Below, one piece after another: positions 30,813-45,472 of a stretch of 46,393 nt of DNA; positions within the stretch are counted from its first letter, which is position 1, and every line of letters starts with the position of its first letter. The notes beneath the pieces were generated by a model that was not told the DNA's origin, did not search any database, and worked only from the letters and a program-made list of their open reading frames with translations. Origin of the DNA: a virus; the IMG/VR virus record IMGVR_UViG_3300044609_000036, positions 1-46,393 of that record, one strand, 5' to 3'. The position numbers and the translations under genes were made by a program.

Positions 30813-32564
30813 TTGGTACCATCTACCGTGAACGATGTTTTAACAGCCCTACGGGGCGATTTTAAGCTGTTCCTTCAAGCACTGTGGCAGCAACTAGACC
30901 TACCCTCTCCGACAAGAGCGCAGTACGCTATTGCTGACTACCTACAACATGGTCCCAAACGACTACAGATTCAAGCATTCCGAGGAGTCGGTAAGAGTTG
31001 GATTACTGGAGCGTTTGTGTTGTGGACCCTATTTAATGATGCAGAAAAGAAAATCATGATTATCTCAGCATCTAAGGAACGTGCTGATAACATGTCCATC
31101 TTCCTGCAGAAGTTGATCATTGAGACACCATGGTTGGTGCACCTCCGTCCGAAGAGTGATGATAGTCGCTGGAGTCGTATCAGCTTTGATGTCAACTGTT
31201 CCCCACACCAAGCCCCGTCCGTTAAATCGGTCGGTATTACCGGACAGTTGACTGGATCACGAGCCGACCTGATGATTCTTGATGACATTGAGGTTCCAGG
31301 CAACTCAATGACTGAGATGATGCGGGAGAAATTATTACAATTATGCACCGAGGCTGAGTCTATTCTGACGCCAAAGAAGGACAGTCGAATTATGTACCTG
31401 GGGACGCCACAAACTACCTTCACGATCTACCGTAAACTGGCAGAGCGTAACTACCGCCCGTTTGTTTGGCCCGCTAGATACCCAAAGTCACTTAGTAACT
31501 ACGAGGGCCTGTTGGCTCCCCAGTTACAGGAAGACATCGACATGGGTGCAGAAGGTGGACGGGTAACAGATCCCGACCGCTTCAGTGATGAGGACCTGGT
31601 GGAACGTGAGGCAGCAATGGGTCGTAGCAACTTTATGCTACAGTTCATGCTGGATACTACCTTGAGTGACGCTGAGAAGTTCCCACTTAAGTTTAGTGAT
31701 CTTGTTGTTACTTCCGTTAATCCGACACAAGCTCCCGATGCTGTGGTGTGGTGCAGTGATCCCCGTAACGTCCTGAAGGACTTACCGACAGTAGGCCTAC
31801 CTGGTGATTACTTCTACAGTCCCATGCAGCTACAGGGTGAGTGGGGGCCATATACCGAAACTATATGTTCCGTTGACCCAAGTGGTCGTGGTACGGACGA
31901 AACATCAGCAACATACATCTCACAAAGGAATGGCTTTCTCTACGTTCACGAAGTACGAGCTTATCGCGACGGTTATAGCGATAACACACTTCTTGACATC
32001 CTGCGTGGGTGTAAGCGTTACAATGTTACGAAGCTCCTCATTGAGACAAACTTCGGTGATGGAGTCATCGCAGAACTCTTTAAGAAGCACCTACAACAAA
32101 CCAAGCAAGCCATTGATGTCGAAGAGGTGCGGGCCAATGTGAGAAAGGAAGACCGCATTATTGACGCCCTTGAACCCGTTATGAACCAGCACAGGCTTAT
32201 TGTGGACAGATCGGTAGTGGAATGGGACTACAGCTCTAATAAGGATGCAGCACCCGAGGAACGACTGCTGTATATGCTGTTCTATCAGATGTCACGGATG
32301 TGTCGTGAGAAGGGCGCAGTTAAACACGACGACAGACTCGATAGCCTAGCACAAGGTGTAAAGTATTTTACTGATGCCATGGGTATTAGTGCCCATGAAG
32401 CAGTTAAGGAACGTAAGCGGGAGGAGTGGAACGACATACTAGAAACCTTCCTTGATGATCCACAAGCTGCTACCAATCACATGGTATTTGGCATGTCTTT
32501 AGACCAGCGAAAACAAGCAAGAGGAAAGACAAAAAAGGTAGTCAGTACATGGGTTAGCTTGTGA
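30813..32564 (+). CDS. Large terminase subunit, T7 gp19-like
   Basis: The 583-aa length matches T7 gp19 (586 aa), the ATPase-nuclease that packages DNA into the prohead. The Walker-A-like FRGVGKSWITGAF lies at about 62-74, the Walker B LMILDDIEVPG near 155, and the GITGQLTGSRAD segment before it is nearly as in T7. The RNase-H-like nuclease has SVDPSGRGTDE, ETNFGDGV and a terminal KHDDRLDSLAQG with acidic metal ligands. TTG at 30813 gives an N-terminus that aligns in length with T7; GTG at 30828 is the alternative. No good Shine-Dalgarno site is seen. The stop overlaps a small GTG-started frame. Confidence 0.95.
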   Translation: MVPSTVNDVLTALRGDFKLFLQALWQQLDLPSPTRAQYAIADYLQHGPKRLQIQAFRGVGKSWITGAFVLWTLFNDAEKKIMIISASKERADNMSIFLQKLIIETPWLVHLRPKSDDSRWSRISFDVNCSPHQAPSVKSVGITGQLTGSRADLMILDDIEVPGNSMTEMMREKLLQLCTEAESILTPKKDSRIMYLGTPQTTFTIYRKLAERNYRPFVWPARYPKSLSNYEGLLAPQLQEDIDMGAEGGRVTDPDRFSDEDLVEREAAMGRSNFMLQFMLDTTLSDAEKFPLKFSDLVVTSVNPTQAPDAVVWCSDPRNVLKDLPTVGLPGDYFYSPMQLQGEWGPYTETICSVDPSGRGTDETSATYISQRNGFLYVHEVRAYRDGYSDNTLLDILRGCKRYNVTKLLIETNFGDGVIAELFKKHLQQTKQAIDVEEVRANVRKEDRIIDALEPVMNQHRLIVDRSVVEWDYSSNKDAAPEERLLYMLFYQMSRMCREKGAVKHDDRLDSLAQGVKYFTDAMGISAHEAVKERKREEWNDILETFLDDPQAATNHMVFGMSLDQRKQARGKTKKVVSTWVSL

Positions 32565-32885: not shown

Positions 32886-33542
32886 ATGACCCACCAAGTT
32901 AGTTTAGTTCACATCACACCTAACGCTGAAGAGCTTATCTCTTACATGGCAAGGGTATCCAACCCATCCAACCAAAGTAACACTGAGACAAGTGCTAAAC
33001 TTATTGGATACCTCATTAAACATAACCACTGGTCTCCGTTTGAGATGGTGAATATGTGCGTAGAGATTGAAACCACAAGGTCTATCGCTGCACAGATACT
33101 ACGTCACCGTTCCTTCAGCTTCCAGGAGTTTAGTCAACGGTACGCAGAAGTACAGCTACGTCCAGAGCTACCAGAAATGCGTAGACAGGACACTAAGAAC
33201 CGTCAGAATAGTATTGATGACCTACCGCTGGGTGTACTCCACGAGACAGACAAGTTAGTTGGTGAAGCCCTTGTAACTGCCTACCGCTCTTATGATCGCC
33301 TACTAGAGCTTGGTGTTGCCAAGGAATGTGCAAGGGAGGTCCTACCCCTTTGTACACCTACACGACTGTACATGAACGGTACCGTCCGTTCCTGGTTGCA
33401 CTATTGTGACCTAAGGTGTGGTAATGGTACACAACTGGAACACCGACGTATTGCCGATCAAGTACGTAATATCATGTGTCGGGAACTACCCGGCGTGTCT
33501 ACTGCCATGTGGGACTCCAACAGGCCAGTACTGGACCTGTAA
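32886..33542 (+). CDS. thyX: Flavin-dependent thymidylate synthase
   Basis: This 218-aa protein methylates dUMP to dTMP using folate, FAD and NADPH. The ThyX signature RHRSFSFQEFSQRY is present in full. The N-terminal ISYMARVSNP and NHWSPFEMVNMCVEIET with the conserved HWSPFE segment, and the C-terminal LRCGNGTQLEHRRIA are typical. Marine picocyanobacteria themselves use ThyX. It is separated from the other nucleotide genes (nrdA, nrdB, mazG) and lies after the terminase with its own leader. It would supply dTTP for phage DNA synthesis. Confidence 0.95.
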   Translation: MTHQVSLVHITPNAEELISYMARVSNPSNQSNTETSAKLIGYLIKHNHWSPFEMVNMCVEIETTRSIAAQILRHRSFSFQEFSQRYAEVQLRPELPEMRRQDTKNRQNSIDDLPLGVLHETDKLVGEALVTAYRSYDRLLELGVAKECAREVLPLCTPTRLYMNGTVRSWLHYCDLRCGNGTQLEHRRIADQVRNIMCRELPGVSTAMWDSNRPVLDL

Positions 33543-33546
33543 ATTT

Positions 33547-33574
33547 TTGACATAAATTTAACAAGCCTTATATC
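33547..33574 (+). promoter_or_regulatory. Sigma-70-type promoter candidate
   Basis: TTGACA (33547-33552), a 16-base AT-rich spacer and TATATC (33569-33574) form a good match to a host vegetative promoter. It lies just after thyX and reads toward the early genes, almost 950 bases upstream. It would suit early transcription by host RNA polymerase, before phage RNA polymerase is made. Confidence 0.4.
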
Positions 33575-33647
33575 GCCAGGGGGCCTCGTATTTCCCCCCA
33601 TACCCCTCCTCTTGCGATCAAGGACTCACCCGGCTCAACACTAACGT

Positions 33648-33681
33648 TATACACAGTGCTCACCTATTGGTACTGTGTATA
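33648..33681. repeat. 10-base inverted repeat in intergenic region
   Basis: TATACACAGT (33648-33657) is followed after 14 bases by its exact complement ACTGTGTATA (33672-33681). The right arm contains the TACTGT word that recurs in the spacer before thyX. It may be a dimeric protein site or an RNA hairpin. Confidence 0.6.
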
Positions 33682-33991
33682 GCAATGTGTAACTATGTAC
33701 AGCGGAGCGTTCCCTTATTGAGAATGAGTTGCAATAAGGATAGCACTGGTGATATGAATGGATAGCGATACGTATTCGTAGCAAGATACCAATTTATCTG
33801 TATGGCCACCCGCTTAGCACAGCGTTGTACCGTTAAACGCTCATTAGAGGCGTCTGTATGGCGCTACAACGTGGTTGTAATGTATTGTCGGTATGGAGAC
33901 ACCATAGAACAGTACGACACCGTACAGAGCCGTATAGCGTGGTGTATGGATATTGTGCAATTGTTCAGCGATAACAGGAGTTACAGCAATA

Positions 33992-34038
33992 TTCACACAC
34001 CGTGCTCACATCGTTCACACTCACGCCCAGTGGCTGCT
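33992..34038 (+). repeat. Imperfect 47-base element, copy 1
   Basis: This element (TTCACAC...TCGTTCACACTCAC...CTGC) matches 34908-34954 over about 47 bases, with an identical core of 14 bases and scattered changes elsewhere. This copy is in non-coding sequence. The other copy runs into the start of an early gene. Confidence 0.6.
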
Positions 34039-34171
34039 AAGCCGCAACCGACCTCACATACGGTGGACACGGTTGGCATACCCATCAGAAATCCTGATAG
34101 CATCAGATAGTGGTTTGGTATCAGGGCGAACTACGGGCACGGCTGGGACCTGGTACATTAGGTACATCGGT

Positions 34172-34195
34172 GGGGGAGGCGAGACCGCCACTCCC
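34172..34195 (+). repeat. GC-rich hairpin
   Basis: GGGGGAGGCG (34172-34181) pairs with CGCCACTCCC (34186-34195) around an AGAC loop, with one A-A mismatch and one G-T wobble. No T-tract follows, so it is not a simple terminator. It may be a processing site or part of a structured leader RNA. Confidence 0.5.
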
Positions 34196-34271
34196 TACCG
34201 CGAACCTTGACAACATAACTGGTCGTCACAAGACGGACTTAGCGGTGCGAGCGATCCCGCGAAGTGTTACA

Positions 34272-34287
34272 GCGTGTGCTAACGCGC
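34272..34287 (+). repeat. GCTA-loop mini-hairpin, copy 1
   Basis: GCGTGT and ACGCGC pair around GCTA. The stretch GTGCTAACGCGCACTA is repeated at 44356-44371 with one change. This copy lies about 220 bases before the first early gene. Confidence 0.45.
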
Positions 34288-34394
34288 ACTAGGTTGCAAC
34301 CCGACCTGACACTACGACCACGGCATAATGTGCAGAGCCACATGCACTTTAAATATTTGATCATGGCACCAATTCCACCGCTATTAACTTTTTG

Positions 34395-34469
34395 ATGTTA
34401 GCTTTAGTTATCCTGATTATCGGTACCACGTACGCCATTAAGGAGATTAACGACAATGTATTCATTTAA
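34395..34469 (+). CDS. Possible 24-aa membrane peptide
   Basis: The frame reads MLALVILIIGTTYAIKEIND and ends NVFI. It has a hydrophobic start long enough for a short membrane segment. It lies 21 bases before the first clear early gene and its ATG overlaps the stop of an even shorter frame (TGATG). It is too short to be sure; it may be a leader peptide. Confidence 0.35.
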   Translation: MLALVILIIGTTYAIKEINDNVFI

Positions 34470-34490
34470 CCAAACACTGCCACTGACCTT

Positions 34491-34733
34491 ATGAACATTA
34501 CCCAAACACCAATTACCATGTTTACCTACGAGCAACTGCGTGATGCTGTGCAAGAATGCACCAGCTATGATCTTGTTGAGCGTATTGATGAAGATGATGA
34601 GGTAGAGTATGCACTCATTGATCCATATGGTGATCAAGATGGTGAGCCATTCTATGACCTGTCTGATGTTGAGTCCTTCATTTGTAATAATGAGGCTGTT
34701 GATGAGTACCTGTACACCGTAGGTCATAAGTGA
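34491..34733 (+). CDS. Acidic early protein
   Basis: This 80-aa protein is very acidic (VERIDEDDEVEYALIDPYGD and nearby). The N-terminus MNITQTPITMFTYEQLRDAV is followed by a helix. It is the first clear early gene after the intergenic region. Small acidic early proteins of phages often mimic DNA or bind host enzymes, but no family is recognised. Its stop overlaps the next start (TGATG). Confidence 0.65.
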   Translation: MNITQTPITMFTYEQLRDAVQECTSYDLVERIDEDDEVEYALIDPYGDQDGEPFYDLSDVESFICNNEAVDEYLYTVGHK

Positions 34734-34903
34734 TGTACTACACTGTGATGCTCACTGAAGGCACAATGAAATCTCTTGATAATCATCCATCCTATAGTGA
34801 TGCAGAGATGACATTCGATGCCTACTGTAACATGTATCCACACGCCTGGATAGAGATAGTCAATGAGGCAGACTATAATGCCTGTGTCACTGCCGCCAAC
34901 TGA
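34733..34903 (+). CDS. Small early protein
   Basis: This 56-aa protein begins MYYTVMLTEGTMKSLDNHPS and ends with AWIEIVNEADYNACVTAAN. It has a beta-alpha pattern with Tyr and Met, and no recognised motif. The TGATG junction with the previous gene supports translation. After it comes a 41-base gap that holds copy 2 of the repeated 47-base element. Confidence 0.55.
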   Translation: MYYTVMLTEGTMKSLDNHPSYSDAEMTFDAYCNMYPHAWIEIVNEADYNACVTAAN

Positions 34904-34907
34904 TTCT

Positions 34908-34954
34908 TTCACACGACCTGTTCACTTCGTTCACACTCACACCAATGACTGCCA
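34908..34954 (+). repeat. Imperfect 47-base element, copy 2, with GTTCACACTCACAC before ATG
   Basis: This is the second copy of the element at 33992-34038. GTTCACACTCACAC (34929-34942) ends two bases before ATG 34945. The same 14-mer occurs at 40797-40810, one base before an in-frame ATG of the primase-helicase gene. Confidence 0.6.
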
Positions 34955-35175
34955 CCTATCAACAACTGCTCAAGCAATCCTACCTGAATCGCCTTCGTAA
35001 TAAGAAGGTAGCCACTGGTAATGATCTACTGCTGCAACTTGACCGTATTAGTGAGGACTACCAGAAAGAGGTGAATAGTACCACATCCCTGACAGATACA
35101 GTGAGCCAGCTCGCTGACTCCGTTGACTTCTTTGATGAGGCCAATGAATACGAAGACCTTGTGTCTGTTGACTGA
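34945..35175 (+). CDS. Small early protein
   Basis: This 76-aa protein is helical: MTATYQQLLKQSYLNRLRNK, then LLLQLDRISEDYQKEVNST, ending with an acidic SVDFFDEANEYEDLVSVD. The basic first half and acidic tail may fold back. No Shine-Dalgarno site is seen; instead the repeated CA-rich motif comes right before the start. Function is unknown. Confidence 0.65.
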   Translation: MTATYQQLLKQSYLNRLRNKKVATGNDLLLQLDRISEDYQKEVNSTTSLTDTVSQLADSVDFFDEANEYEDLVSVD

Positions 35176-35203
35176 TTACTTATCCACCATTCTCCACAAT
35201 CTA

Positions 35204-35785
35204 ATGACTACCACCACCACCGCTCCCGTGTTTATGCTAACGGGTGATTCACTTGTGTCGTTTGTTGACGAACAGATGGAGCTTGTCAATCAGGGCAAAC
35301 TTACTCGTACCGACATGATTAAGGATGCTGGTTATGTGTATGATAACGGCAATGCTATGTACACACAGTTCTACACCGAACTACTTAATGCAAAGGGTTT
35401 AACACCAGTGACTAACACTGACGTGGCTGATCGTGAGTACAATGACTTGACAATGGATGCTAAGTGCCTGTACGACAGTATCACTGATATACTTGGTGAG
35501 AAGTGGACTCATGAGGAGACCATTGCATTCATGGATGAGCTTGAGGACATCGGCATCCAATATGCTGATGACTTTGAGGAAGCCTTTGAGTGGGAGCATG
35601 ACAGCTACTGGTGGAATGCCGAGAAGGAGTTCGCCGAATATTGGTGTGTCGAAGTAATGGATGCACGGATACCTGACTTCCTGTTTGCTGCCATCGATTG
35701 GCAGGGTGTGTGGGACCATAACCTACGTTATGACTTCTCATCTATTGAGACTGTTAACGGTACGTTCTTCTTTCGTAACAACTAA
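35204..35785 (+). CDS. ArdA-like antirestriction protein (probable)
   Basis: This 193-aa protein is strongly acidic and rich in aromatic residues. The start is ATG 35204 (MTTTTTAPVF); the longer upstream frame lies inside the preceding gene. The C-terminal part, with IPDFLFAAIDWQGVWDHNLR followed by YDFSSI and FFFRN, resembles the ArdA pattern in which an acidic (F/I)DW...D repeat ends the protein. ArdA mimics bent B-DNA and blocks type I restriction enzymes. An early position is right for a protein that protects entering DNA, as T7 Ocr (gp0.3) does. Identity is suggested by pattern, charge and place, not by a strong motif. Confidence 0.55.
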   Translation: MTTTTTAPVFMLTGDSLVSFVDEQMELVNQGKLTRTDMIKDAGYVYDNGNAMYTQFYTELLNAKGLTPVTNTDVADREYNDLTMDAKCLYDSITDILGEKWTHEETIAFMDELEDIGIQYADDFEEAFEWEHDSYWWNAEKEFAEYWCVEVMDARIPDFLFAAIDWQGVWDHNLRYDFSSIETVNGTFFFRNN

Positions 35786-35787
35786 TT

Positions 35788-35901
35788 ATGACTATTTGGA
35801 CTGAGCAACAGATTATCCTTTCTGTTGTTGGTATGGTTGGCATTCTTAGTGTCATCCCAGTTTACATCTACAGCACCGTTCGTAACCCCATCAACAAATG
35901 A
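35788..35901 (+). CDS. Small single-span membrane protein
   Basis: This 37-aa protein has one hydrophobic segment (IILSVVGMVGILSVIPVYIY) and a short basic tail (STVRNPINK). It lies two bases after the ArdA-like gene and overlaps the next start (ATGA). Early small membrane proteins can affect host envelope or superinfection, but there is no evidence which. It could sit in the plasma or thylakoid membrane. Confidence 0.6.
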   Translation: MTIWTEQQIILSVVGMVGILSVIPVYIYSTVRNPINK

Positions 35902-36152
35902 CTGTTTTCACACTCACACGCTACTGCTGCTGCGGCTCTACTGTTATTCTTGGTGTCTTTGGTAGTATGGAGGCTGCCATTGAACGACTTCGTGTATTGG
36001 CTGCAATGACTGATCCTGGTGATGAGTACCGTATCGAATGCTTCGAGATCAAGACCTATGAAGAGGAGGTAGAGAGTACAGAGAGCACACTTCGTCATCG
36101 TGCCGAGTACAAGGCCAAGCAAGCCCGTCTTAATGAGATGGAGGATAACTGA
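35898..36152 (+). CDS. Small early protein
   Basis: This 84-aa protein has a beta-like Cys-rich start (TLTRYCCCGSTVILGVFGSM), then an AAIERLRVLAAM helix, and a highly charged C-terminus (KTYEEEVESTEST then RAEYKAKQARLNEMEDN). The three Cys in a row (CCC) might bind metal, but no second pair is nearby. Its start overlaps the membrane-protein gene and its stop overlaps the following one. Confidence 0.65.
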   Translation: MTVFTLTRYCCCGSTVILGVFGSMEAAIERLRVLAAMTDPGDEYRIECFEIKTYEEEVESTESTLRHRAEYKAKQARLNEMEDN

Positions 36153-36337
36153 TGACCGTACATAGCACTGCAGTACGGGTGGACATCTTCCCCGATGAGT
36201 TCAAACCCATTATGAAGGCAGTCAAATACGCTTTATTGTGTGATGACTCACGCAAGGTACTTACTGGTGATGAATGGGCATTACTTAATGCATGGATTGA
36301 TGACTTCAGTTCAATTGCACTTAATGAGGGTATCTAA
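36152..36337 (+). CDS. Small early protein
   Basis: This 61-aa protein reads MTVHSTAVRVDIFPDEFKPI and later LTGDEWALLNAWIDDFSSIA. It is acidic and helical with no recognised motif. The start overlaps the previous stop (TGATG). It is followed after two bases by the next small gene. Confidence 0.6.
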   Translation: MTVHSTAVRVDIFPDEFKPIMKAVKYALLCDDSRKVLTGDEWALLNAWIDDFSSIALNEGI

Positions 36338-36339
36338 GG

Positions 36340-36501
36340 ATGGCTAAACCACTGACTGATGAACAGCGTCAGCTTCGTGTCAACATGGTTGAGTCCTTAG
36401 TTAAGTACGCTAAAGAGATGGAAGATCCTGCACCTGAGTATGCTGCCGAGTTAACTAAACAAATCAAACGTGTTGCCAAGTTCCTTTGCGTTGCTAACTA
36501 A
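36340..36501 (+). CDS. Small helical early protein
   Basis: This 53-aa protein (MAKPLTDEQRQLRVNMVESL, then LTKQIKRVAKFLCVAN) is mostly helix with mixed charge. The ATG overlaps AAGG too closely for a normal Shine-Dalgarno site. The stop overlaps the next start (TAATG). Function is unknown. Confidence 0.55.
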   Translation: MAKPLTDEQRQLRVNMVESLVKYAKEMEDPAPEYAAELTKQIKRVAKFLCVAN

Positions 36502-36665
36502 TGTACAGCACTCATAAAAGCCTGCGTGAGTATGAGGTTACCCTCACTAGTGGTGTGTGGTACATCCTTGCATATAATGTAGAGGCAGCGGCAAACGCTG
36601 CGCTTGACCTCGCCAAGAAGTCCATGGTTGAGTTACTCAATGTCAAACAAACGGATGAATGGTAA
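36501..36665 (+). CDS. Small early protein
   Basis: This 54-aa protein (MYSTHKSLREYEVTLTSGVW, then EAAANAALDLAKKSMVELL) has a beta-strand start and one long helix. The TAATG start is coupled to the gene before. The pattern of strand, strand, helix resembles the Sm-like or DUF small phage proteins that bind nucleic acid, but this is only a guess. Confidence 0.55.
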   Translation: MYSTHKSLREYEVTLTSGVWYILAYNVEAAANAALDLAKKSMVELLNVKQTDEW

Positions 36666-36980
36666 ATGACTAAGAAAAAGAAGCCCGACTTTCCTAATAA
36701 CTGGCAAGAATACAAGGACTCTGATGATGAGTTGTTCATCCCGCATACCTACGAGGAGGTAATGACCTGGAAGGTAGGCGGTTGGGAATTACCTAGCTCT
36801 ATCGCCTGTATTATCCGTGCCTCCGACCTTGAGACAGGTAAGGTCACAGAGTATGTCTACCAAAAGCGTAGTGCTGCTCAACGTAAAGTCAATCAACTCA
36901 TTAACACACCAAACGTTGAGTTTATTGTAGCTGATCACGAATCTATCCACCACCTCTTCCCTGCAACTGATGACAACTGA
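36666..36980 (+). CDS. Early protein of unknown function
   Basis: This 104-aa protein has a basic start (MTKKKKPDFPNNWQEYKDSD), then IPHTYEEVMTWKVGGWELPS, then TEYVYQKRSAAQRKVNQLIN and an acidic end (DHESIHHLFPATDDN). The ATG directly abuts the previous stop. No known domain is seen. It is likely a small globular protein of mixed alpha and beta structure. Confidence 0.65.
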   Translation: MTKKKKPDFPNNWQEYKDSDDELFIPHTYEEVMTWKVGGWELPSSIACIIRASDLETGKVTEYVYQKRSAAQRKVNQLINTPNVEFIVADHESIHHLFPATDDN

Positions 36981-37110
36981 GACCTATTCCCGTCGCCTTG
37001 CTCAACTGATTCAACAAGTCAAGAATCATCCCAATCGTGATGAGATCCTACGGCTTGCACAAGAACAACTCATTGATGAAGCAGAGTTCACAATCATCGA
37101 CGGTAACTAG
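36970..37110 (+). CDS. Small helical protein before RNA polymerase
   Basis: This 46-aa protein (MTTETYSRRLAQLIQQVKNH, ending EQLIDEAEFTIIDGN) is likely helical. It overlaps the previous gene by 11 bases and ends two bases before the RNA polymerase start, so the pair is probably translated together. Function is unknown. Confidence 0.55.
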   Translation: MTTETYSRRLAQLIQQVKNHPNRDEILRLAQEQLIDEAEFTIIDGN

Positions 37111-37112
37111 TA

Positions 37113-39452
37113 TTGGCTACACCTGCACAGATCGACGAACAAGTAGCTCTTGAACGTGAACAAATACGTCAAGGGCTACAGCGATTACGTGACAACACAG
37201 CCAAGCTACAAGAAAGAAGCTACGCAAGTGCCACAGTTTATGGTGTGGCTTCTATTGATGCTCTGCTTCCTAAACTTGTGGAGTACATACAGGAGACGAC
37301 AGAGTATCGACTCAAGCGAGGATCGGGACATCAATTCGATGTAATCAAGAATTATGTATCGAAACTAGAGCCCCTTGCGTCAGCTTCTATTTCACTTAAG
37401 CTGACCTTTGATAAGGTATTCTCTGTCAAGCAAGGTAGTGACCAATTACAATCCGTATGTGATGCGATTGGTCACGCTATTGAATCAGAGTGCCAGATGC
37501 GGCATTATGAGACTTCCGCTCCTGGACTCCTGGCGGTACTAAAGAAGAACTACTTCCACCGCTCTATTGGTACCCAACAGAAGCTGGTAGTTATCCGTAC
37601 CCTAATGAACAGGTACGAGATACCAGAGTGGGAAGCATGGGGGAGAGCTAATCGTATTAAACTTGGTGCATGGCTGCTTGATTGCATCATGACAACAAGT
37701 GGTTGGTTCACCAAAGATCTACGTAGGATGGGTAAGAACACACTTACCTTTGTCATTCCCACACCTGAGTTCCTTAAGATTCGGGATAAGGTCATGAGTG
37801 ATGCTGAACTATTCGCACCTCTTGCATGGCCAATGCTAATCGAACCTAACAATTGGACTAACAATCGCCAGGGTGGTTACCTCCTGAATGAGGTGATGAG
37901 GGGTAACGATCTAGTGCGGCGGGGAGATCCCACCCGTATACAGGGGGACGTACCCATCAGCTTTCTGAACAAGATTCAGAAGGTCCCATACCGTGTTAAC
38001 AAGTTTACCTATGAGGTAGCAGAACAGTTAACCGAGTTAGAACGAGCTGTGGGTAAGTTCCTCCCAATTGTTAATCATCCCCTGCCTGTTAAACCTGTAG
38101 ATATAGACACTAACTACGATAGTAGAAAGGACTATAGAAGAAGGGCAGCGGAGGTGAGGAACATACAAGCACAAGAGCCTAAGAAATCCTGTCGTACTAG
38201 GATGACTATGGAGGCTGCTCGTAGGTTTAAGAACAGGGATAGGTTCTTCTGTCCATGGAGTTTCGACTACCGTGGTAGAGCGTACCCTATTCCTGCTTTT
38301 CTTACACCACAAGACACTGACTTTGGTAAGTCGCTACTTACCTTTGCTGATGGGTCGTATATGACTCCTGAAGCTGAGTCGTGGTTAGCCTTCCATGTTG
38401 CTACGTGTTATGGCCTGGATAAGGCTACAATGGCTGATCGTCTTGAGTGGGTGGCTAATCACATCACACTCATCACGCGAGTTGCTACGGATCCGATAGG
38501 CTATCTACCCGAGTGGGAGAGTGCTGAGGAACCATGGCAGTTCTTAGCCAGTTGTGATGAATACTATCACTGTGTGATCATAGCTGATAGACAATTCACA
38601 GTATTACCTGTTGCAGTTGACGCAACATGCAGTGGCCTTCAAATCTTGGCGGGACTCGCACGAGATAAGTCTACTGCTAAGCTGGTCAATGTCCTTCCTG
38701 GTGATAAACCTCAAGATGCCTACAAGGTTGTCGCTGAGGTCGCACGTGATTCAGTTCCTGAACGTGTGCGTGATAACCTGGATCGGAAGAAGACCAAGCG
38801 ATGCGTGATGACCATCCCTTACAACGCCAAACCTTACTCCAACAGGGGTTACATCAAAGATGCATTCCTTGAGGATGGTATTGAGCTTGATAAGGATGAG
38901 CTAAGTCAAGTGGTAAAGGCTATACGCTCCGCTATGGATGTCGTAGTTCCTGGCCCGATGGCTGTGATGAAGTGGATTGAGACTGAGGTTGCAGCTGCTG
39001 TAAAGCGTGGCATACAACACCTTGAATGGGTTACACCATCTGGGTTTGTCGTACACCAGAAGCTTAACAAGAAGCAGTACCAGACAATGGAGCTGCAACT
39101 GTTGGGTCGTTGTAAGATGAACGTGGCAGTTGGGGATACCGATGAGGTTGACCTTAACCACCACAAGAATGCAACTGCTCCAAACCTTATCCACTCACTC
39201 GATGCTAGTCTTCTACATTTGAGTGCTCTACGTTTCGACGCACCTATTGCTCTCATTCACGATTCTGTGCTTTGTCGTGCAACGGACATGTCTACCTTGT
39301 CCACCATTGTACGAGAAACATACATGCATCTCTTTGCAGAGCATGACTACCTGCGAGACTTTGCCCAACAGATTGGTGCAGAGTCCGAACCACCGATCAT
39401 TGGTGATCTAGAACCAGAGACCGTGATCGAATCCACCTACTTCTTTTGTTAA
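37113..39452 (+). CDS. Single-subunit RNA polymerase, T7 gp1-like
   Basis: This 779-aa protein is about the length of other cyanopodovirus polymerases and shorter than T7's (883 aa). It transcribes middle and late phage genes. The start appears to be TTG 37113 (MATPAQIDEQ). Motifs: FDYRGRAYPIP near residue 384, catalytic PVAVDATCSGLQ near 500 (motif A), KRCVMTIPYNAKPYSNRG near 565 (motif B), PNLIHSLDASLLHL near 695, and ALIHDSVLCR near 715 with the second catalytic Asp (motif C). The C-terminus ends TYFFC, with aromatic residues at the foot as in T7. The N-terminal promoter-binding part is shorter than in T7. Confidence 0.97.
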   Translation: MATPAQIDEQVALEREQIRQGLQRLRDNTAKLQERSYASATVYGVASIDALLPKLVEYIQETTEYRLKRGSGHQFDVIKNYVSKLEPLASASISLKLTFDKVFSVKQGSDQLQSVCDAIGHAIESECQMRHYETSAPGLLAVLKKNYFHRSIGTQQKLVVIRTLMNRYEIPEWEAWGRANRIKLGAWLLDCIMTTSGWFTKDLRRMGKNTLTFVIPTPEFLKIRDKVMSDAELFAPLAWPMLIEPNNWTNNRQGGYLLNEVMRGNDLVRRGDPTRIQGDVPISFLNKIQKVPYRVNKFTYEVAEQLTELERAVGKFLPIVNHPLPVKPVDIDTNYDSRKDYRRRAAEVRNIQAQEPKKSCRTRMTMEAARRFKNRDRFFCPWSFDYRGRAYPIPAFLTPQDTDFGKSLLTFADGSYMTPEAESWLAFHVATCYGLDKATMADRLEWVANHITLITRVATDPIGYLPEWESAEEPWQFLASCDEYYHCVIIADRQFTVLPVAVDATCSGLQILAGLARDKSTAKLVNVLPGDKPQDAYKVVAEVARDSVPERVRDNLDRKKTKRCVMTIPYNAKPYSNRGYIKDAFLEDGIELDKDELSQVVKAIRSAMDVVVPGPMAVMKWIETEVAAAVKRGIQHLEWVTPSGFVVHQKLNKKQYQTMELQLLGRCKMNVAVGDTDEVDLNHHKNATAPNLIHSLDASLLHLSALRFDAPIALIHDSVLCRATDMSTLSTIVRETYMHLFAEHDYLRDFAQQIGAESEPPIIGDLEPETVIESTYFFC

Positions 39453-40021
39453 TGGCACAATCCATCCACGTTACTCAACAGCCTGTTGTCCTTGAAGGTT
39501 ACCAAGCTGTACTGAAGCCCTCCAAGTTTGGGTATTCACTGTCTGCATTGCTCGATTCCACACTCATCGAAGTGCTGGAGGATGACCGTAAAGAAACCCT
39601 TAAATGGGCCGAGTCCAAGCTGAAGAATCCCAAGCGCTCTGTGCTTAAGCCTGAACCCTGGGAAGAAGTATCCGAGGGTAAGTTCAAGACTAAGTTCTCC
39701 TGGAATGAAGAGAACCGCCCACCCGTAGTTGACACTGAGGGTACACCCATTACCAACCTTGACCTGCCCGTATACAGTGGCAGCAAGGTAAAACTGGCAT
39801 TCAAACAGAAGCCCTACATCCTCAAGGATGGGGTTACCTACGGCACCAGCCTGAAGCTTGTTGGTGTACAGGTTGTCGAGATCAATGGGTCTGCTGGTGT
39901 TGATCGCAGTGACCTTGGTGATACCGAGGTGGCTGCACTGTTTGGTCAGACCACTGGGTTCAAGGCATCATCTACTGAAGCTGGTGTCGTTGATGATACA
40001 GTCGAGGATGACGACTTCTGA
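39452..40021 (+). CDS. Single-stranded DNA-binding protein, T7 gp2.5-like
   Basis: This 189-aa protein has an OB-fold core and a strongly acidic C-terminal tail ending VVDDTVEDDDF with a final Phe, the feature of T7 gp2.5 that docks polymerase and helicase. ATG 39452 overlaps the RNA polymerase stop (TAATG); a TTG two codons earlier is less likely. Core text such as PWEEVSEGKFKTKFSWNEEN and SGSKVKLAFKQKPYILKDG matches cyanophage SSBs. It coats single-stranded DNA and stimulates replication and annealing. Confidence 0.88.
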   Translation: MAQSIHVTQQPVVLEGYQAVLKPSKFGYSLSALLDSTLIEVLEDDRKETLKWAESKLKNPKRSVLKPEPWEEVSEGKFKTKFSWNEENRPPVVDTEGTPITNLDLPVYSGSKVKLAFKQKPYILKDGVTYGTSLKLVGVQVVEINGSAGVDRSDLGDTEVAALFGQTTGFKASSTEAGVVDDTVEDDDF

Positions 40022-40374
40022 TGGCATTCCGCTCAGGGCTTGAAGAGAAGGTCGCTGATCTTCTCACCAACCTTGGGGTCAAGTACGAATATGAATCTAC
40101 CAAGGTCCCCTACGTCCTGCAGTGTAACTACACTCCCGACTTCCTGTTACCCAACGGTATCTACCTAGAAACCAAGGGTCAACTGACGGAGGAAGATAGA
40201 CGCAAGATGAAAGCCGTCAGAGCTATGCATCCTGACCTTGATGTACGATTCGTATTCCAAGCACCTCATAACAAGATCTATAAAGGATCTAAAACTACCT
40301 ATGCCAAATGGGCCGATAAACACGGCTTCCTTTGGTGTTCTTTCCACTCGATTCCTCTTTCATGGCTGACGTAG
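40021..40374 (+). CDS. Endonuclease I (Holliday-junction resolvase), T7 gp3-like
   Basis: This 117-aa protein is close to T7 gp3 (149 aa). It has FRSGLEEKVADLL with Glu8, then NYTPDFLLPNGIYLETKG with Asp40, Glu50 and Lys52, matching the T7 catalytic set (E20, D55, E65, K67). It cuts branched DNA, which helps host DNA breakdown and removes replication junctions before packaging. T7's N-terminal 12 residues and basic tail are missing. It overlaps the SSB stop (TGATG) and the next small gene by 13 bases. Confidence 0.95.
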   Translation: MAFRSGLEEKVADLLTNLGVKYEYESTKVPYVLQCNYTPDFLLPNGIYLETKGQLTEEDRRKMKAVRAMHPDLDVRFVFQAPHNKIYKGSKTTYAKWADKHGFLWCSFHSIPLSWLT

Positions 40375-40508
40375 AACTTATCCGAGACCTGGCTACAGGG
40401 CTCATCAATGCACTTGCCAAGACATCCTCCCCGAACGATATTGTAGAGGGCTTTGAGGATGCCCTGGATGCCTATGAAGAACTGATCAACTCCGCCTACC
40501 AGAAATGA
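40362..40508 (+). CDS. Small acidic helical protein
   Basis: This 48-aa protein (MADVELIRDLATGLINALAK, then DIVEGFEDALDAYEELINSA) begins inside gp3 and overlaps the next start (ATGA). Its second half resembles part of the next protein (ALVEGFVQAVREWKEY), so the two may be diverged copies. Function is unknown. Confidence 0.6.
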   Translation: MADVELIRDLATGLINALAKTSSPNDIVEGFEDALDAYEELINSAYQK

Positions 40509-40705
40509 CCTACGGTACTGCTGAATACTACGCCAACGCTTTCGCTGACTTCCTTGCTGATGTAGATCATTCTGATCCTACCTACGGTGATGCCCTTGTT
40601 GAGGGCTTTGTACAAGCTGTACGTGAGTGGAAAGAGTACCACGCTAAGCAAGTGAATGAATACGATCGAATCGAACAGCGAGTTCGTAAGGCACTTACCG
40701 TGTGA
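40505..40705 (+). CDS. Small acidic helical protein
   Basis: This 66-aa protein begins MTYGTAEYYANAFADFLADV, continues DALVEGFVQAVREWKEYHAK and ends with a basic RIEQRVRKALTV. It overlaps the previous gene by four bases and the primase-helicase start by 50 bases in another frame. Location among replication genes suggests a small accessory protein. No domain is recognised. Confidence 0.65.
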   Translation: MTYGTAEYYANAFADFLADVDHSDPTYGDALVEGFVQAVREWKEYHAKQVNEYDRIEQRVRKALTV

Positions 40706-42236
40706 AACCTGTGGGTCATCTGATGCAAATAGCTTGTACTCAGATGGCCACACTTTTTGTTTCGCATGTAATACATATGGCAACGATGAACAACAGGTTC
40801 ACACTCACACAATGTCCACCAATGTCCAACTCCGAGGTTCAGCCGAGCGGCTGCAAAAACGGAACATCTCAGAAAAGGTATGCCAACAGTACCGAATCTA
40901 CAGGGATGGCGATGTCCTACGCTTCCATTATTTCGACGATGCTGGAGTACTTCGAGGATGTAAGGTAAAGACCAAGAATAAGATCTTTAGTTATGAAGGT
41001 GATGTACCAGGAACCCTCTTTGGACAGCATTTGTTTCCCGCCACTGGAAAACGAGTCGTTATCACCGAAGGGGAACTCGATGCAGCTAGTTGTCAGGAAG
41101 TTATGCCGGGGTGGCCGATGGTATCTTTACCTAGCGGTGCCGCAGCGGCAAGGAAGTCGGTTCAACGGGCTCTCCAATGGCTCCAGGGTTATGAGGAGAT
41201 TGTCCTGTTCTTCGACAATGACGAGGCGGGCCGTAAAGCGGCGGAGGACGCAGCAGGGGTCCTACCACCTGGCAAGACAAAGATCGCAAGACTTGAGGAA
41301 TACAAGGATGCGTCAGACGCTTTACAAGCCGATGACACTGAAGCAATTCGTCGAGCGATTTGGGATGCAAAGCCGTATCGTCCAGATGGAATTGTAGATG
41401 GTCGCTCCCTGCTTGATTTAGTAACTACACCCAATCCACCATGTGATCATGACTACAGCTTCATGGGTCTCCAAACCAAACTCCACGGGATTAGGTATGG
41501 AGAGCTTGTCACGATCACTGCAGGATCTGGCATCGGGAAATCAAGCTTCTGTCGTGAACTTGCAACTGACTTACTCAATAGAGGAGAACGAGTTGGTTAC
41601 CTGGCACTTGAAGAGTCCAATCGTCGTACAGCTCTTGGATTGATGTCCGCTGCTGTTGGTAAGTCCCTCCACCTAGGTAACCATGACCGATCTACCCTGA
41701 CAGATGCCTACCAAGCTACGCTTGCTAACTGGAATCTCTTCCTGTTTGATGGTTTTGGTAGCTTTGATCCTGATGTCATCTATAACCGCATTGAGTACCT
41801 TGCCTGTGGATTGGACACCAAGGTTATCTTCCTTGATCACTTGTCTATTCTTATGTCTGGTCTTGAGGGTGATGAGCGTCGCATGATCGACCAAACAATG
41901 ACAAAACTACGCTCACTAGTGGAACGCACTGGTGTAGCTATGTTCCTTGTTTCCCACCTACGTCGTACATCTAATGATCAAAACCATGAAGAAGGAGCAC
42001 GAGTCACCCTTGGACAACTTCGAGGTTCGGCAGCTATTGCTCAACTGTCAGATGGAGTTATTGCGCTTGAACGGAACCAGCAGACGGATCGAGGAGGCTC
42101 TACAACAACTGTGCGAGTCCTCAAAAACCGTTATAGTGGAGAAGTAGGAGTTGCCTGTCATCTTGACTACGACCTAGAGACTTGTAAATTTACCGAGACT
42201 GAAGCTAATGACTTCGACCCCAGTACAGACTTTTGA
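40656..42236 (+). CDS. Primase-helicase, T7 gp4-like
   Basis: This 526-aa bifunctional replication protein (T7 gp4 is 566 aa) has a zinc ribbon at residues 16-38 with C16, C19, C35 and C38, nearly as in T7 (CGSSDANSLYSDGH). The TOPRIM primase has ITEGELDAAS (about 136-145) and FFDNDEAGRKAA (about 185). The hexameric helicase has the Walker A AGSGIGKSS (about 289-297), Walker B VIFLDHLSIL, LVSHLRR and GQLRGSAAIAQLSD. An in-frame ATG at codon 53 (40812) after the zinc ribbon corresponds to T7 gp4B, a helicase-only form. It has the repeated CA-rich motif just before it. The gene starts inside the previous small gene. Confidence 0.97.
   Translation: MNTIESNSEFVRHLPCETCGSSDANSLYSDGHTFCFACNTYGNDEQQVHTHTMSTNVQLRGSAERLQKRNISEKVCQQYRIYRDGDVLRFHYFDDAGVLRGCKVKTKNKIFSYEGDVPGTLFGQHLFPATGKRVVITEGELDAASCQEVMPGWPMVSLPSGAAAARKSVQRALQWLQGYEEIVLFFDNDEAGRKAAEDAAGVLPPGKTKIARLEEYKDASDALQADDTEAIRRAIWDAKPYRPDGIVDGRSLLDLVTTPNPPCDHDYSFMGLQTKLHGIRYGELVTITAGSGIGKSSFCRELATDLLNRGERVGYLALEESNRRTALGLMSAAVGKSLHLGNHDRSTLTDAYQATLANWNLFLFDGFGSFDPDVIYNRIEYLACGLDTKVIFLDHLSILMSGLEGDERRMIDQTMTKLRSLVERTGVAMFLVSHLRRTSNDQNHEEGARVTLGQLRGSAAIAQLSDGVIALERNQQTDRGGSTTTVRVLKNRYSGEVGVACHLDYDLETCKFTETEANDFDPSTDF
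40797..40814 (+). promoter_or_regulatory. GTTCACACTCACAC motif before internal start of primase-helicase
   Basis: The 14-base motif at 40797-40810 is followed by ATG 40812, in frame at codon 53. The same motif precedes ATG 34945. This supports an internal start for a shorter helicase form like T7 gp4B. In this gene the motif is also coding (VHTHT), so chance cannot be excluded. Confidence 0.35.
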
Positions 42237-42372
42237 AGACTACGGTTTTGCTTATTTTTATGAGCAAAAGGATGGTACTATTTTAACTGCTATCCCCCCC
42301 AATCCTCCCACACCTGAGGCAGTCAAGCGAGCACAGTTCGTTGACAAGACCTACAAGTGGATGGGGAAGTGA
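42208..42372 (+). CDS. Small protein after primase-helicase
   Basis: This 54-aa protein reads MTSTPVQTFEDYGFAYFYEQ, then KDGTILTAIPPNPPTPEAVK and ends YKWMGK. It starts 29 bases inside the primase-helicase end and its stop overlaps the next GTG (GTGA). It has a strand-rich aromatic start and a Pro-rich middle. Function is unknown. Confidence 0.55.
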   Translation: MTSTPVQTFEDYGFAYFYEQKDGTILTAIPPNPPTPEAVKRAQFVDKTYKWMGK

Positions 42373-42590
42373 CTGACCTCTCACCCGCCGCGCAGGCTGT
42401 GCTGGATGCAGTGGCGCCGCACCCTGCCTACGGTCCAGCAATCGCCGCCGCCCTCCGCGCTGCTACGCGTGAGGTGGCGCCCCCGCCGCCGCCCTCAAAC
42501 TCGGGTGACCCTGAAATGCTGAAAGGCATCTGGGATGAGCGCAGAGCCATTCGCGCCAAACTCCTCGCTATCGCCGAAGAGCTGGAGTGA
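42369..42590 (+). CDS. Small G+C-rich protein inserted before DNA polymerase
   Basis: This 73-aa protein starts at GTG 42369, overlapping the previous stop (GTGA). It reads TDLSPAAQAVLDAVAPHPAY, then GPAIAAALRAATREV, a run of prolines, and ends RAKLLAIAEELE. This pattern (LSPAAQAVLDA... IAAALRAA... LLAIAEELE) is familiar from small hypothetical proteins in marine cyanobacteria and their phages. Codons are clearly richer in G+C than in the genes on both sides, suggesting recent acquisition. Function is unknown. An earlier GTG at 42357 is also in frame. Confidence 0.65.
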   Translation: MTDLSPAAQAVLDAVAPHPAYGPAIAAALRAATREVAPPPPPSNSGDPEMLKGIWDERRAIRAKLLAIAEELE

Positions 42591-42592
42591 CT

Positions 42593-43111
42593 ATGAACCT
42601 AATCTTTGACTTAGAGACAGACGGCCTGTATGATCATTGCTCCAAGATTCACTGTGTTGGCATCTATGATCTCGATACCAAACAAACTCTTGTCTTCAAT
42701 GATGAAGGTAGTGAGCAACCGATCACAAAGGGCATCCAAATGCTTGAGGACGCCAAGTCACTTATCGGCCACAACATCATTGGATACGACCTGCCGGTGA
42801 TACGTAAGTTGTTTCCGTGGTTCACTCCCAATGCTATCATTGTCGATACACTTGTACTGAGTCGCATCTACCACGCAGACATCCTTAAGACAGATCAGAA
42901 GCGTAGGCTAAAGACCATGCCACCCAAGTTACAGGGCCGTCACAGTCTTGAAGCATACGGTTACCGACTGGGTGAGTACAAGGGAGAGTTTGGCAAGGAC
43001 ACTGACTGGAAGCACTGGTCACAGGAGATGCAAGACTATTGTGTACAAGATGTACAAGTAACTTATAAACTATGGCAACACTTCCATCCATACCTGACTT
43101 CATCAAACTAG
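42593..43111 (+). CDS. DNA polymerase, 3'-5' proofreading exonuclease part
   Basis: This 172-aa protein is a complete DEDD-type exonuclease domain as in the N-terminal third of T7 gp5: NLIFDLETDGL (D and E of motif I), SLIGHNIIGYDLPVI (motif II) and YCVQDVQVTYKLW (Tyr and Asp of motif III). The polymerase domain is in a separate frame that begins at 43072, 40 bases before this stop. ATG 42593 is preferred; GTG 42587 overlaps the previous gene. It presumably associates with the polymerase part, and a frameshift fusion is also possible, though no classic slippery heptamer is seen in the overlap. Confidence 0.88.
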   Translation: MNLIFDLETDGLYDHCSKIHCVGIYDLDTKQTLVFNDEGSEQPITKGIQMLEDAKSLIGHNIIGYDLPVIRKLFPWFTPNAIIVDTLVLSRIYHADILKTDQKRRLKTMPPKLQGRHSLEAYGYRLGEYKGEFGKDTDWKHWSQEMQDYCVQDVQVTYKLWQHFHPYLTSSN

Positions 43112-44352
43112 AACATGATGTCGCCTCCATCCTCACCACCCAAGAATTACATGGATGGTACTTTGACGAAGCTGCTGCACGGGAACTTGCACAAGCTCTC
43201 TACTCCGAGCTTGATGGCCTTAATCGTGTACTACGGAAGCGGTACCCTTACGTTGCTGGACGCGAATTTACTCCGAAGAGATCTAACCGCACCACAGGAT
43301 ATGTAGGTGGTGCCACAGTAACCAAGCTAAAGGAGTTCAGCCCTACCAGTCGTGATCACATTGCGTGGGTCATGACTAACCTGCACGGTTGGATCCCCGA
43401 TAAAGAGACAGCAAGTGGCAAGACTGCCATTGACGAAACAGTTCTCAAAGACATCGGGACAGAGGAAGCCCTGCAGTTCTTCCGTTGCCTGGAATTAACC
43501 AAGCAACTAGGCATGTTGTCTGAGGGCAAGAATGCCTGGCTTAAACTGGTACGTGGTAATCGCATTCACCACCACTGTTCAGTTGCTACGAACACACACC
43601 GTTGTGCCCACCGTAATCCCAACCTTGCACAGGTACCGAGTGGCCTTAACTTTAGAAAGCTATTTATCCCTAGCCCTGGCCTTTGCATGGTTGGTGCTGA
43701 CCTCTCAGGGATTGAATTGCGAATGCTTGCCCACTATCTGGCTAGATATGATGGAGGCAGGTACGGAGACGTTCTTCTCAACGGTGACATTCACCAGGAG
43801 AATGCAGACAAGATAGGCATTAGCCGCCGACTTGTCAAGACAGTTACGTACGCATTTTTGTACGGCGCTGGAGACCAGAAGATAGGTATTAGTTATGACC
43901 CAAGCCTTCCCCCGGACAAGGCCAAGAAAAAAGGTGCGGAAATACGATCCGCTTATGTTGCTGCCATTGACGGCCTGGATAGCCTTCTTACCGCTGTTCG
44001 TCAAGCTGGTGAGCGAGGGTTTATCAAATCGATAGACGGTCGTAAGATCTCTGTTGATAGTCCACACAAAGCACTCAATTACTTATTGCAATCGGGTGCC
44101 GGTGTTGTAGCTAAGCGGTGGATGGTCATTGCTGACCAAAACTTTCCCACCATTGACAACGATTACATCCTTCACACTCATCAGCTTGCATTCGTTCACG
44201 ACGAATTGCAGTACGAGTGCCTACCAGCCTACGCAGAAGACCTTAAGAACCACCTAGAGCTGTGTGCTTCCCTTGCGGGGGAGTACTATGAGCTACGTGT
44301 TCCAATCGCTGCTGAGGGCAAGATAGGCGCCTCTTGGGCTGATGTCCACTAG
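43072..44352 (+). CDS. DNA polymerase I family, polymerase part, T7 gp5-like
   Basis: This 426-aa protein has the family A motifs: HRCAHRNPNLAQVPSG, motif A GADLSGIELRMLAHYL (about 209), motif B LVKTVTYAFLYGAGDQKIG (about 255) and motif C FVHDELQYECLP (about 376). The frame is shifted -1 relative to the exonuclease gene, with a 40-base overlap. Between RYPYV and FSPTSRDHI the T7 enzyme has about 70 residues that bind thioredoxin; here only about 27 remain. It therefore probably uses another means of processivity. It copies the phage genome at the fork with the helicase and SSB. Confidence 0.95.
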   Translation: MATLPSIPDFIKLEHDVASILTTQELHGWYFDEAAARELAQALYSELDGLNRVLRKRYPYVAGREFTPKRSNRTTGYVGGATVTKLKEFSPTSRDHIAWVMTNLHGWIPDKETASGKTAIDETVLKDIGTEEALQFFRCLELTKQLGMLSEGKNAWLKLVRGNRIHHHCSVATNTHRCAHRNPNLAQVPSGLNFRKLFIPSPGLCMVGADLSGIELRMLAHYLARYDGGRYGDVLLNGDIHQENADKIGISRRLVKTVTYAFLYGAGDQKIGISYDPSLPPDKAKKKGAEIRSAYVAAIDGLDSLLTAVRQAGERGFIKSIDGRKISVDSPHKALNYLLQSGAGVVAKRWMVIADQNFPTIDNDYILHTHQLAFVHDELQYECLPAYAEDLKNHLELCASLAGEYYELRVPIAAEGKIGASWADVH

Positions 44353-44367
44353 TGCGTGCTAACGCAC
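44352..44367 (+). repeat. GCTA-loop mini-hairpin, copy 2
   Basis: GTGCGT and ACGCAC form a perfect 6-base stem around GCTA, directly after the polymerase stop codon, in a 28-base gap. GTGCTAACGCACACTA matches the copy near 34276 with one change. It may mark an RNA processing or stabilising site. Confidence 0.5.
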
Positions 44368-44380
44368 ACTAATAATTACT

Positions 44381-44512
44381 ATGGCACGATCTAAAACTGA
44401 CCTGGGACGTACTAAGTTCCAATCTCGAGCTAAATTTAAACATACTCACCAGGGTAACGGTACTCGATCCCTACCCAAACGTGGCCGCAAACTTAAGCGG
44501 GGTCAAGGGTGA
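44381..44512 (+). CDS. Small very basic protein
   Basis: This 43-aa protein has many Arg, Lys and Gly residues (MARSKTDLGRTKFQSRAKFK, ending LPKRGRKLKRGQG). It is coupled to the exonuclease by GTGA. It probably binds nucleic acid. No family is recognised. The gene is too short for usual gene callers. Confidence 0.6.
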   Translation: MARSKTDLGRTKFQSRAKFKHTHQGNGTRSLPKRGRKLKRGQG

Positions 44513-45276: not shown

Positions 45277-45472
45277 AGATGCTCTACGGCATCCCGAGTC
45301 ACACAAGGAGGACATCATCACGATCTTCCTTGCTTTACAACGCCAGTGCTTTGTACTTGGCAATTCAATGTCTAACCTAGTTAAGAAATGGCCCACTCCA
45401 ATTCCACAGGCCCCAACTACTACCAACGGGGAAACATCCAAGTCTGGGATTTCATTCGAGACCAAGACCTGA
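45176..45472 (+). CDS. NblA-like phycobilisome degradation adaptor (probable)
   Basis: The frame gives 98 aa. Residues about 20-73 resemble NblA: ILELTMEQQFKLKQIEDAL, like the ELSLEQQF start of cellular NblA, then a turn, a second helix DIITIFLALQRQCFVLGN and a basic NLVKKWP end, where cellular NblA has a KH-W end. NblA links phycobilisome proteins to the Clp protease, causing antenna loss. NblA-like genes are known, from memory, in freshwater cyanomyoviruses and some marine T7-like cyanophages. The gene overlaps the exonuclease end by 101 bases and the DUF3310 gene by 85. The start is one of ATG 45176, 45179 or 45185. The extra Pro/Thr-rich C-terminus (PTPIPQAPTTT) is unusual for NblA. Confidence 0.65.
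   Translation: MMTMISPIKNQDFGIPAPILELTMEQQFKLKQIEDALRHPESHKEDIITIFLALQRQCFVLGNSMSNLVKKWPTPIPQAPTTTNGETSKSGISFETKT

Follow-up and report, generated by a model that had tools for sequence, protein, structure and literature searches.

What does the largest gap of a T7-like cyanophage genome hold, between its last late and its first early gene? The window, i.e. the whole stretch of 46,393 bp that was analysed (IMGVR_UViG_3300044609_000036), comes from a T7-like Synechococcus podovirus, with DSL-LC07 (OQ999402) and S-CBP1 (KC310802) being its nearest named records. Bases 1–74 are identical to bases 46320–46393 (74 bp) and both ends match the same S-CBP1 stretch, which indicates that the contig is a circle opened at an arbitrary point, with a circle length of 46319 bp (46393 − 74). 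The opening point matches the gene for the alpha subunit of class I ribonucleotide reductase in S-CBP1.

Gene calls and Pfam/PHROG matches placed positions 33543–34490 where the original prediction had them, between the last late gene and the early ORFs. On one side are thyX, the last late gene (32886–33542, PF02511), and a terL with a T7-type RNaseH domain (30813–32564; PF22530, 122.8 bits at a cut-off of 27; phrog_38), while the early ORFs 3′ of the gap run toward the phage RNA polymerase at 37113. With the given ORFs taken as genes, this gap of 948 bp is indeed the largest (the next one is 395 bp), but it is not gene-free as had been claimed, since 34395–34469 encodes a conserved peptide. 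No tRNA was detected in the 948 bp.

Several small elements had also been listed for the gap. The GC-rich hairpin (34168–34200) and both copies of a mini-hairpin with a TGCTAA loop (34030–34045 and 34272–34287) are present; the 10-base inverted repeat turned out to have 9 bp and a wobble as its tenth pair (33649–33658/33671–33680), and the 47-base element is found as a 46-base copy (33992–34037), with a second copy at 34908–34952 (80% identical, E 3.7e-5). The shorter repeats in the gap are given as seen, and no direct or inverted repeat of at least 12 bp was detected within 33443–34600. GTTCACACTCAC, with up to one mismatch, occurs at 34013, 34929, 35906 and 40797, exclusively on the + strand and within the early half, and two of these copies (34929 and 40797) directly precede an ATG.

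Comparison with relatives by blastn revealed separate conserved blocks in the gap, which proved to be different things. Two features far beyond chance, neither of them named in the original prediction, are an end signature and a covarying RNA. The gap consists of these two neighbours in different halves, the predicted terminal repeat at 33571–33795 and the RNA at about 34166–34367. Taken as a whole, we consider it quite likely that the locus is a T7-like concatemer junction together with the leader RNA of the early genes.

Predicted packaging cuts and terminal repeat

A terminal repeat and a packaging signal had been proposed for this gap, and a repeat with packaging cuts here agrees with the motif spacing and the hexamer of five phage records that carry terminal repeats at their ends, namely T7 (160 bp), P-SSP7 (206 bp), Syn5 (237 bp), S-SBP1 (180 bp) and S-TIP37 (150 bp). 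The repeats of Syn5, S-SBP1 and S-TIP37 were taken from the ends of the deposited records, and the ends of P-SSP7, with their 206-bp repeat, are described as experimentally mapped (PMC3350473). In all five records, A[T/C]CTGT immediately follows the right repeat edge. The first T of TTTTG[G/A]CA lies 26 nt before the repeat start in P-SSP7, Syn5, S-SBP1 and S-TIP37, and likewise before the predicted one in the window. Ahead of its cut T7 reads CATAAAAATCTGAGTGACTA, to which the P-SSP7 sequence CAGAAATGTCTGAGGTCATA and the window sequence CATAAATTTAACAAGCCTTA can be aligned, and CATAAA starts 20 nt before the cut in both T7 and the window. A run of C was found 24–27 nt inside the repeat in each of the five phages as well as in the window.

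The left-cut (terminase) motif of the window, TTTTGACATAAATTTAACAAGCCTTA (33545–33570, + strand), ends at the predicted cut 33570|33571; the C-run CCCCCCA (33594–33600, + strand), also present in relatives, starts 24 nt inside the predicted repeat, and ATCTGT (33796–33801, + strand) directly follows the predicted right cut at 33795|33796. With its boundaries set by homology to the five repeat-bearing records (150–237 bp), the direct terminal repeat is predicted to span 225 bp (33571–33795). We are highly confident that a T7-type terminase would cut at these two positions and leave 33571–33795 at both ends of the virion DNA. The gap very probably holds the packaging cut site of the linear genome, and would be the concatemer junction at which the replicated DNA of this T7-like cyanophage is joined end to end. 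Inside the predicted repeat, the TTATTGAGAAT motif, an imperfect inverted repeat (33714–33738), is kept in several relatives, and the Syn5 repeat holds TATTGAGAAT twice.

Like the junctions of T7, P-SSP7, Syn5, S-SBP1 and S-TIP37, that of the window lies between the packaging or last late genes and the early genes, and it shares with them the left motif, a C-run around positions +24 to +27, a right edge marked by A[T/C]CTGT and a length of 150–240 bp. Unlike in those records, the repeat of the window is a predicted one, and its likeness to the T7 and P-SSP7 repeats is at the level of motifs. With a T7-type terminase, the left motif at 26 nt and A[T/C]CTGT at the edge, the ends of the window look like those of a usual T7-type junction, the position of which is now given by homology.

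Ends that are circularly permuted (headful packaging) or lie elsewhere, with the similarity reflecting only the shared ancestry of a promoter-like region, would be a different explanation. The assembly closes as a circle through its 74-bp overlap, as permuted genomes do, and a collapsed repeat would give the same closure. The ends of public contigs do not coincide with the predicted cuts, perhaps as a result of assemblers running through the collapsed repeat; we did not count them as support. Against permuted or displaced ends stand the exact spacing and the hexamer at the boundaries in the repeat-bearing records, as well as the T7-type terminase in the genome, and we regard them as highly improbable. 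Four contigs (L006, L008, L025 and L036) end 179–185 bp past the predicted left cut.

The good host-type promoter that had been reported here, TTGACA-16-TATATC (33547–33574), is the end motif itself, and the predicted cut splits its −10 hexamer. It was rejected as an early promoter, with relatives reading TTGGCA, TTAGCA or TTAACA at this place. A promoter scan by its own rule found 0, with 2.6 expected.

The full end signature was identified in 87 loci, 67 of which are distinct and predict repeats of 138–368 bp (median 221 bp); since the right edge was defined as the first A[T/C]CTGT 130–400 nt past the left cut, individual repeat lengths may be wrong. A scan of 2.49 Mb (both strands) gave 87 hits, about one per locus in a set that differs slightly from the 87 loci, whereas base-shuffled sequence (1.25 Mb, one strand) gave 0. 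With such a rule, sequence alone would show where a T7-like cyanophage genome physically ends and which of its genes truly comes first (67 distinct loci), which would be useful for genomes deposited as circles, such as S-CBP1, S-CBP3, S-CBP4, S-SRP01 and DSL-LC07.

A covarying three-way junction and pseudoknot

On the early side, starting 356 bp outside the predicted repeat, blastn revealed a conserved block of 218 bp (34151–34368). A pattern scan of IMG/VR yielded 50 stretches, 44 of which contain the RNA core; adding the window and DSL-LC07 brought this to 46 loci, and in all of them, as far as the contigs reach, the core comes after thyX/terL and before the early genes. The core of the window (34220–34320, + strand) is a three-way junction with helices P1 (34220–34226/34314–34320), P3 (34242–34245/34257–34260), P4 (34263–34267/34309–34313) and P5 (34291–34295/34303–34307). 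In alignment A1 (below), the extra mini-hairpin with the TGCTAA loop (34272–34287, + strand) is an insert of the window between P4 and P5. Hairpins with this loop and varying stems were also observed at changing places in the leaders of L105, L110, L124, L125, L126, L128 and L134, as if they were mobile.

A1 is a free MAFFT alignment of 35 distinct sequences from the 46 core loci, at which duplicates and the cut-short L094, L111 and L120 were left out. Under the named structure 94.5% of its cells were paired, compared to 27–38% when the structure was slid along the alignment, and 121 cells were doubly changed versus 36.4 in shuffles; as the loci are mutually related, such cell counts overstate the independent events. 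RNAalifold returned the same helices unprompted. Realignment with a covariance model (A2; 39 rows, 38 distinct), which leans to the structure by construction, gave 98.6% paired cells, 14 of 26 pairs doubly changed (reached by 1 of 500 shuffles) and a covariation of 0.365 versus 0.106 in shuffled alignments. The number of further pair types was not above the shuffles, being reached by 135 of 500 for A1 and 260 of 500 for A2, whereas the other four measures exceeded them. P3 and parts of P1, P5 and P6 (the first stem of the pseudoknot) are invariant, so covariation is silent there. One pair in A2 is U-G in 34 of the 38 sequences and A-U in 4, which points to the + strand as RNA.

Downstream of the core, covariation in a third alignment (A3) identified an H-type pseudoknot (34330–34367, + strand). 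Its first stem, P6 (34330–34334/34343–34347), encloses the loop GA[GCCA]CA (34335–34342) of the last hairpin; GCCA (34337–34340) in this loop pairs with TGGC (34364–34367) of the downstream TCA[UGGC] to form the second stem. Among the 39 distinct sequences of A3 the second stem was 98.7% paired, and 3 of its 4 pairs showed compensatory changes, with CCCA/UGGG in L012 and S-SBP1, GUCA/UGAC in S-RIP2 and KBS-P-1A, and GCCU/AGGC in L013. Five loci with UCCA/UGGU have no outer pair, two of which were counted in A3 as unpaired at this position. These five (TCCA/TGGT) and 53 true ones out of 57 strict matches (the other four being chance hits) make up the 58 pseudoknot rows, 41 of which were taken into A3; duplicates, near-duplicates and four rows with long inserts were left out. 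The pseudoknot is common to S-CBP4, S-RIP2, KBS-P-1A, S-TIP37 and S-SBP1, and in S-CBP4 and S-TIP37 it is found where the junction core of the window is absent. L109 has the core and the loop, with a stem too short for the pseudoknot detector.

The window copy scored 117.1 bits over the full length of model R1. This model, built from 35 sequences of 50 sources, gave 39 matches in these sources at an E-value of at most 0.01. When 13 whole phage records were searched, R1 matched at full strength in 3 (the window, DSL-LC07 and S-CBP1) and at 17 bits in S-CBP4, S-RIP2 and KBS-P-1A, with no match in the remaining 7; on other leaders, the core model of the window reached a pseudoknot level of 13–23 bits (E 0.003–0.67). 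The core was absent from bacterial genome contigs in two exact-pattern scans. Rfam 15 gave 0 matches at gathering threshold for the window, with sub-threshold hits only for the window, L102 and L086, and no description of the leader RNA was apparent in the portions of the literature on cyanophages and structured RNAs that were searched.

The fold of the junction and the pseudoknot is established by covariation, in a transcript that we infer. We regard the folded RNA as strongly supported, without an Rfam family, and as kept by many relatives at the start of the early genes. The possibility that the gap might encode an RNA had been raised at the outset; it is supported by the covariation in the comparative alignments, and both junction and pseudoknot are kept, with 46 core loci.

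A putative early promoter and modular leader

Early promoters had likewise been proposed for the gap. They are clear in 32 of 37 distinct relatives, at a site other than the one named, and degenerate in the window. In these relatives TTGACA or TAGACA is followed, after 17–18 nt, by TATNNT (at least 9 of 12 matches, as reached by 2% of base shuffles), 81–114 nt and mostly about 85 nt before the core, which is a nearly fixed place. The −10 position of this early leader promoter in the window is 34154–34159 (+ strand), with TACATT, and the −35 is not consensus. The window, L087, L089, L103 and L113 have a −10-like hexamer only and share GCGAACTACGGG as their −35 region, where an activator or some other factor might be involved.

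From the position of this promoter, host RNA polymerase would likely start the first early transcript near 34166, just within the left end. Over its initial ~200 nt, such a transcript would fold into a 5′ hairpin, the three-way junction and a closing H-type pseudoknot, and the early genes, with that of a hydrophobic 24-residue peptide being the first, would follow with no terminator-like site between. On the + strand, no terminator-like site was detected in 33400–34600, and such sites in 34300–46393 were not above expectation (7 found, 8.3 expected).

The peptide gene (34395–34469, + strand; 24 residues, MLALVILIIGTTYAIKEINDNVFI) is the first gene after the leader. The N-terminal half of the peptide is hydrophobic, its putative membrane span having been judged by eye, and peptides ending in IKEINDN.. 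(IKEINDNVFL, up to 2 changes) were found in 15 loci including the window. Other reading frames were rejected as genes: ORF 33802–34110 showed no PHROG or Pfam match and no convincing relative by tblastn, and the matches of ORFs 33953–34210 and 34110–34292 track DNA conservation and break between frames. ATG GCA at 34363 was also rejected as a start, as L013 (TCAAGGC) lacks this ATG, which is part of the pseudoknot strand; the letters that follow are not conserved by eye.

At its 5′ end, the putative leader transcript would carry P0, the GC-rich hairpin (34168–34200, + strand); when 35 distinct relatives and the window were folded singly, the window and most of the relatives gave a hairpin there. 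It is followed by a block, GAACCTTGACAAC (34202–34214, + strand), which is similar in the leaders of all four core types. At least 4 different cores, split by signature strings, are enclosed between this 5′ block (GAACCT-GACAA) and the pseudoknot. The second core type also covaries, with 97.6% paired and 6 of 14 pairs doubly changed among 9 sequences (alignment A4, from which L150 was excluded out of 10; L043, misaligned by one base in P1, was counted as unpaired), while types 3 and 4 were distinguished by sequence strings alone.

There were 56 distinct end-signature loci covered for 900 nt past the right cut, a set chosen in part for its core or pseudoknot patterns. Among them, 46 carried one of the four cores and in 45 the pseudoknot was detected; 10 have neither, which means that the ends can do without the RNA. 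In a set selected by thyX (the best 80 of at least 599 matches), 30 of 80 had the end signature and 24 were covered, 14 of which had core and pseudoknot.

These counts bear on whether the covarying element is a DNA structure, i.e. a cruciform or a packaging or replication signal, rather than an RNA. It does lie near a predicted genome end. On the other hand, it is 425 bp outside the predicted repeat, most relatives have a promoter upstream of it, the pseudoknot and the conserved U-G wobble (34 of 38) fit one strand as RNA, and the 10 loci above have the ends without the element; a DNA structure is thus very improbable. The packaging RNA of phi29 is a phage RNA that is likewise structured and has its gene close to an end of the genome, and the RNA of the window shares this place. 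Unlike it, the latter has no Rfam match and is absent in 10 of the 56 covered loci that have this end signature, and T7-type packaging is not known to need an RNA. In L011, L012, L024, L028, L150, L157 and other marine-type loci, a long hairpin (GACTCTC...GAGAGTC) was observed between the repeat and the leader; neither of its arms was found in the gap of the window.

Possible roles of the leader RNA

Judged from sequence, the RNA most probably heads the first early transcript and functions as an RNA. It occurs in the cultured phages S-CBP1 and DSL-LC07, at the probable start of the first transcript of the infection. The constant ends and exchangeable cores suggest a discrete RNA derived from the leader, at which the pseudoknot would fix the 3′ border and the core would bind a partner that varies from one phage or host to another; we put this forward tentatively, at somewhat less than even chances. 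It is rather unlikely, though conceivable, that this modular first-transcript RNA is a new class of early-takeover RNA, the core of which meets a host-variable component (e.g. a defence or RNA-decay factor). The exchangeable cores raise a testable question, namely what early phage RNAs bind in Synechococcus.

About as likely as the discrete RNA is a leader acting in cis, where the fold would stay on the early mRNA as a 5′ stabiliser, an aptamer-like switch or a control of the translation of the peptide and its neighbours. The RNA immediately precedes the early operon, the + strand shows no terminator-like site in the stretch given above, and the hairpin P0 is at the 5′ end; moreover, aptamers often take the form of a three-way junction whose junction letters are invariant. 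What fits less well is that the distance from the pseudoknot strand to the start codon is, by eye, not fixed, that four core types at one place would be odd for one ligand, and that no Rfam riboswitch is among the hits. Glutamine and downstream-peptide riboswitches have a three-way junction with the letters GACGGAA..UAG, 5′ of a short peptide gene, and the window shares the junction, the letters and the place upstream of such a gene; they are not among the Rfam hits up to E-values of 5–10 for the window, L102 and L086. Hammerhead, tmRNA and glutamine riboswitch were rejected, with no support from Rfam (window, L102 and L086) or ARAGORN (window and 12 relatives).

The put RNAs of HK022 are two stem-loops after the early promoter, which bind the host RNA polymerase and cause antitermination in cis. 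The leader of the window would likewise be a folded RNA with which an early phage transcript begins, the first after the early promoter position and in cis, with conserved letters in the junction and the loop, and it might similarly bind host RNA polymerase for read-through of the early operon. However, its architecture is a three-way junction with a pseudoknot instead of two stem-loops, its cores are exchangeable and there is no sign of terminators to overcome, the terminator-like sites being no more than expected (7 versus 8.3). Antitermination of this kind is therefore improbable, and the leader acting as a discrete RNA or in cis is preferred.

A canonical tRNA T-arm (e.g. CAGGGTTCGAGTCCCTG), with no D-arm, was observed after the pseudoknot in marine relatives, namely L013, L024, L028, L033, L041–L044, L150 (S-RIP2), L151 (KBS-P-1A), L157 (S-TIP37), L158 (S-SBP1) and L135 (P-SSP7). 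The same search found no T-arm in the window, ARAGORN detected no tRNA or tmRNA in the window or 12 relatives, and Rfam detected no tRNA in L150, L157, L158 and L135. The likeness to tRNA and tmRNA domains is thus one of the marine relatives, not of the window, and consists of the T-arm and, in five loci (L013, L024, L028, L150 and L151), an acceptor-like stem of 7 pairs; the other T-arm loci have fewer or ambiguous pairs, and the P-SSP7 leader has two T-arms. In the marine relatives, this tRNA-like pair of stems without a D-arm could be a cutting site for RNase P that frees the RNA.
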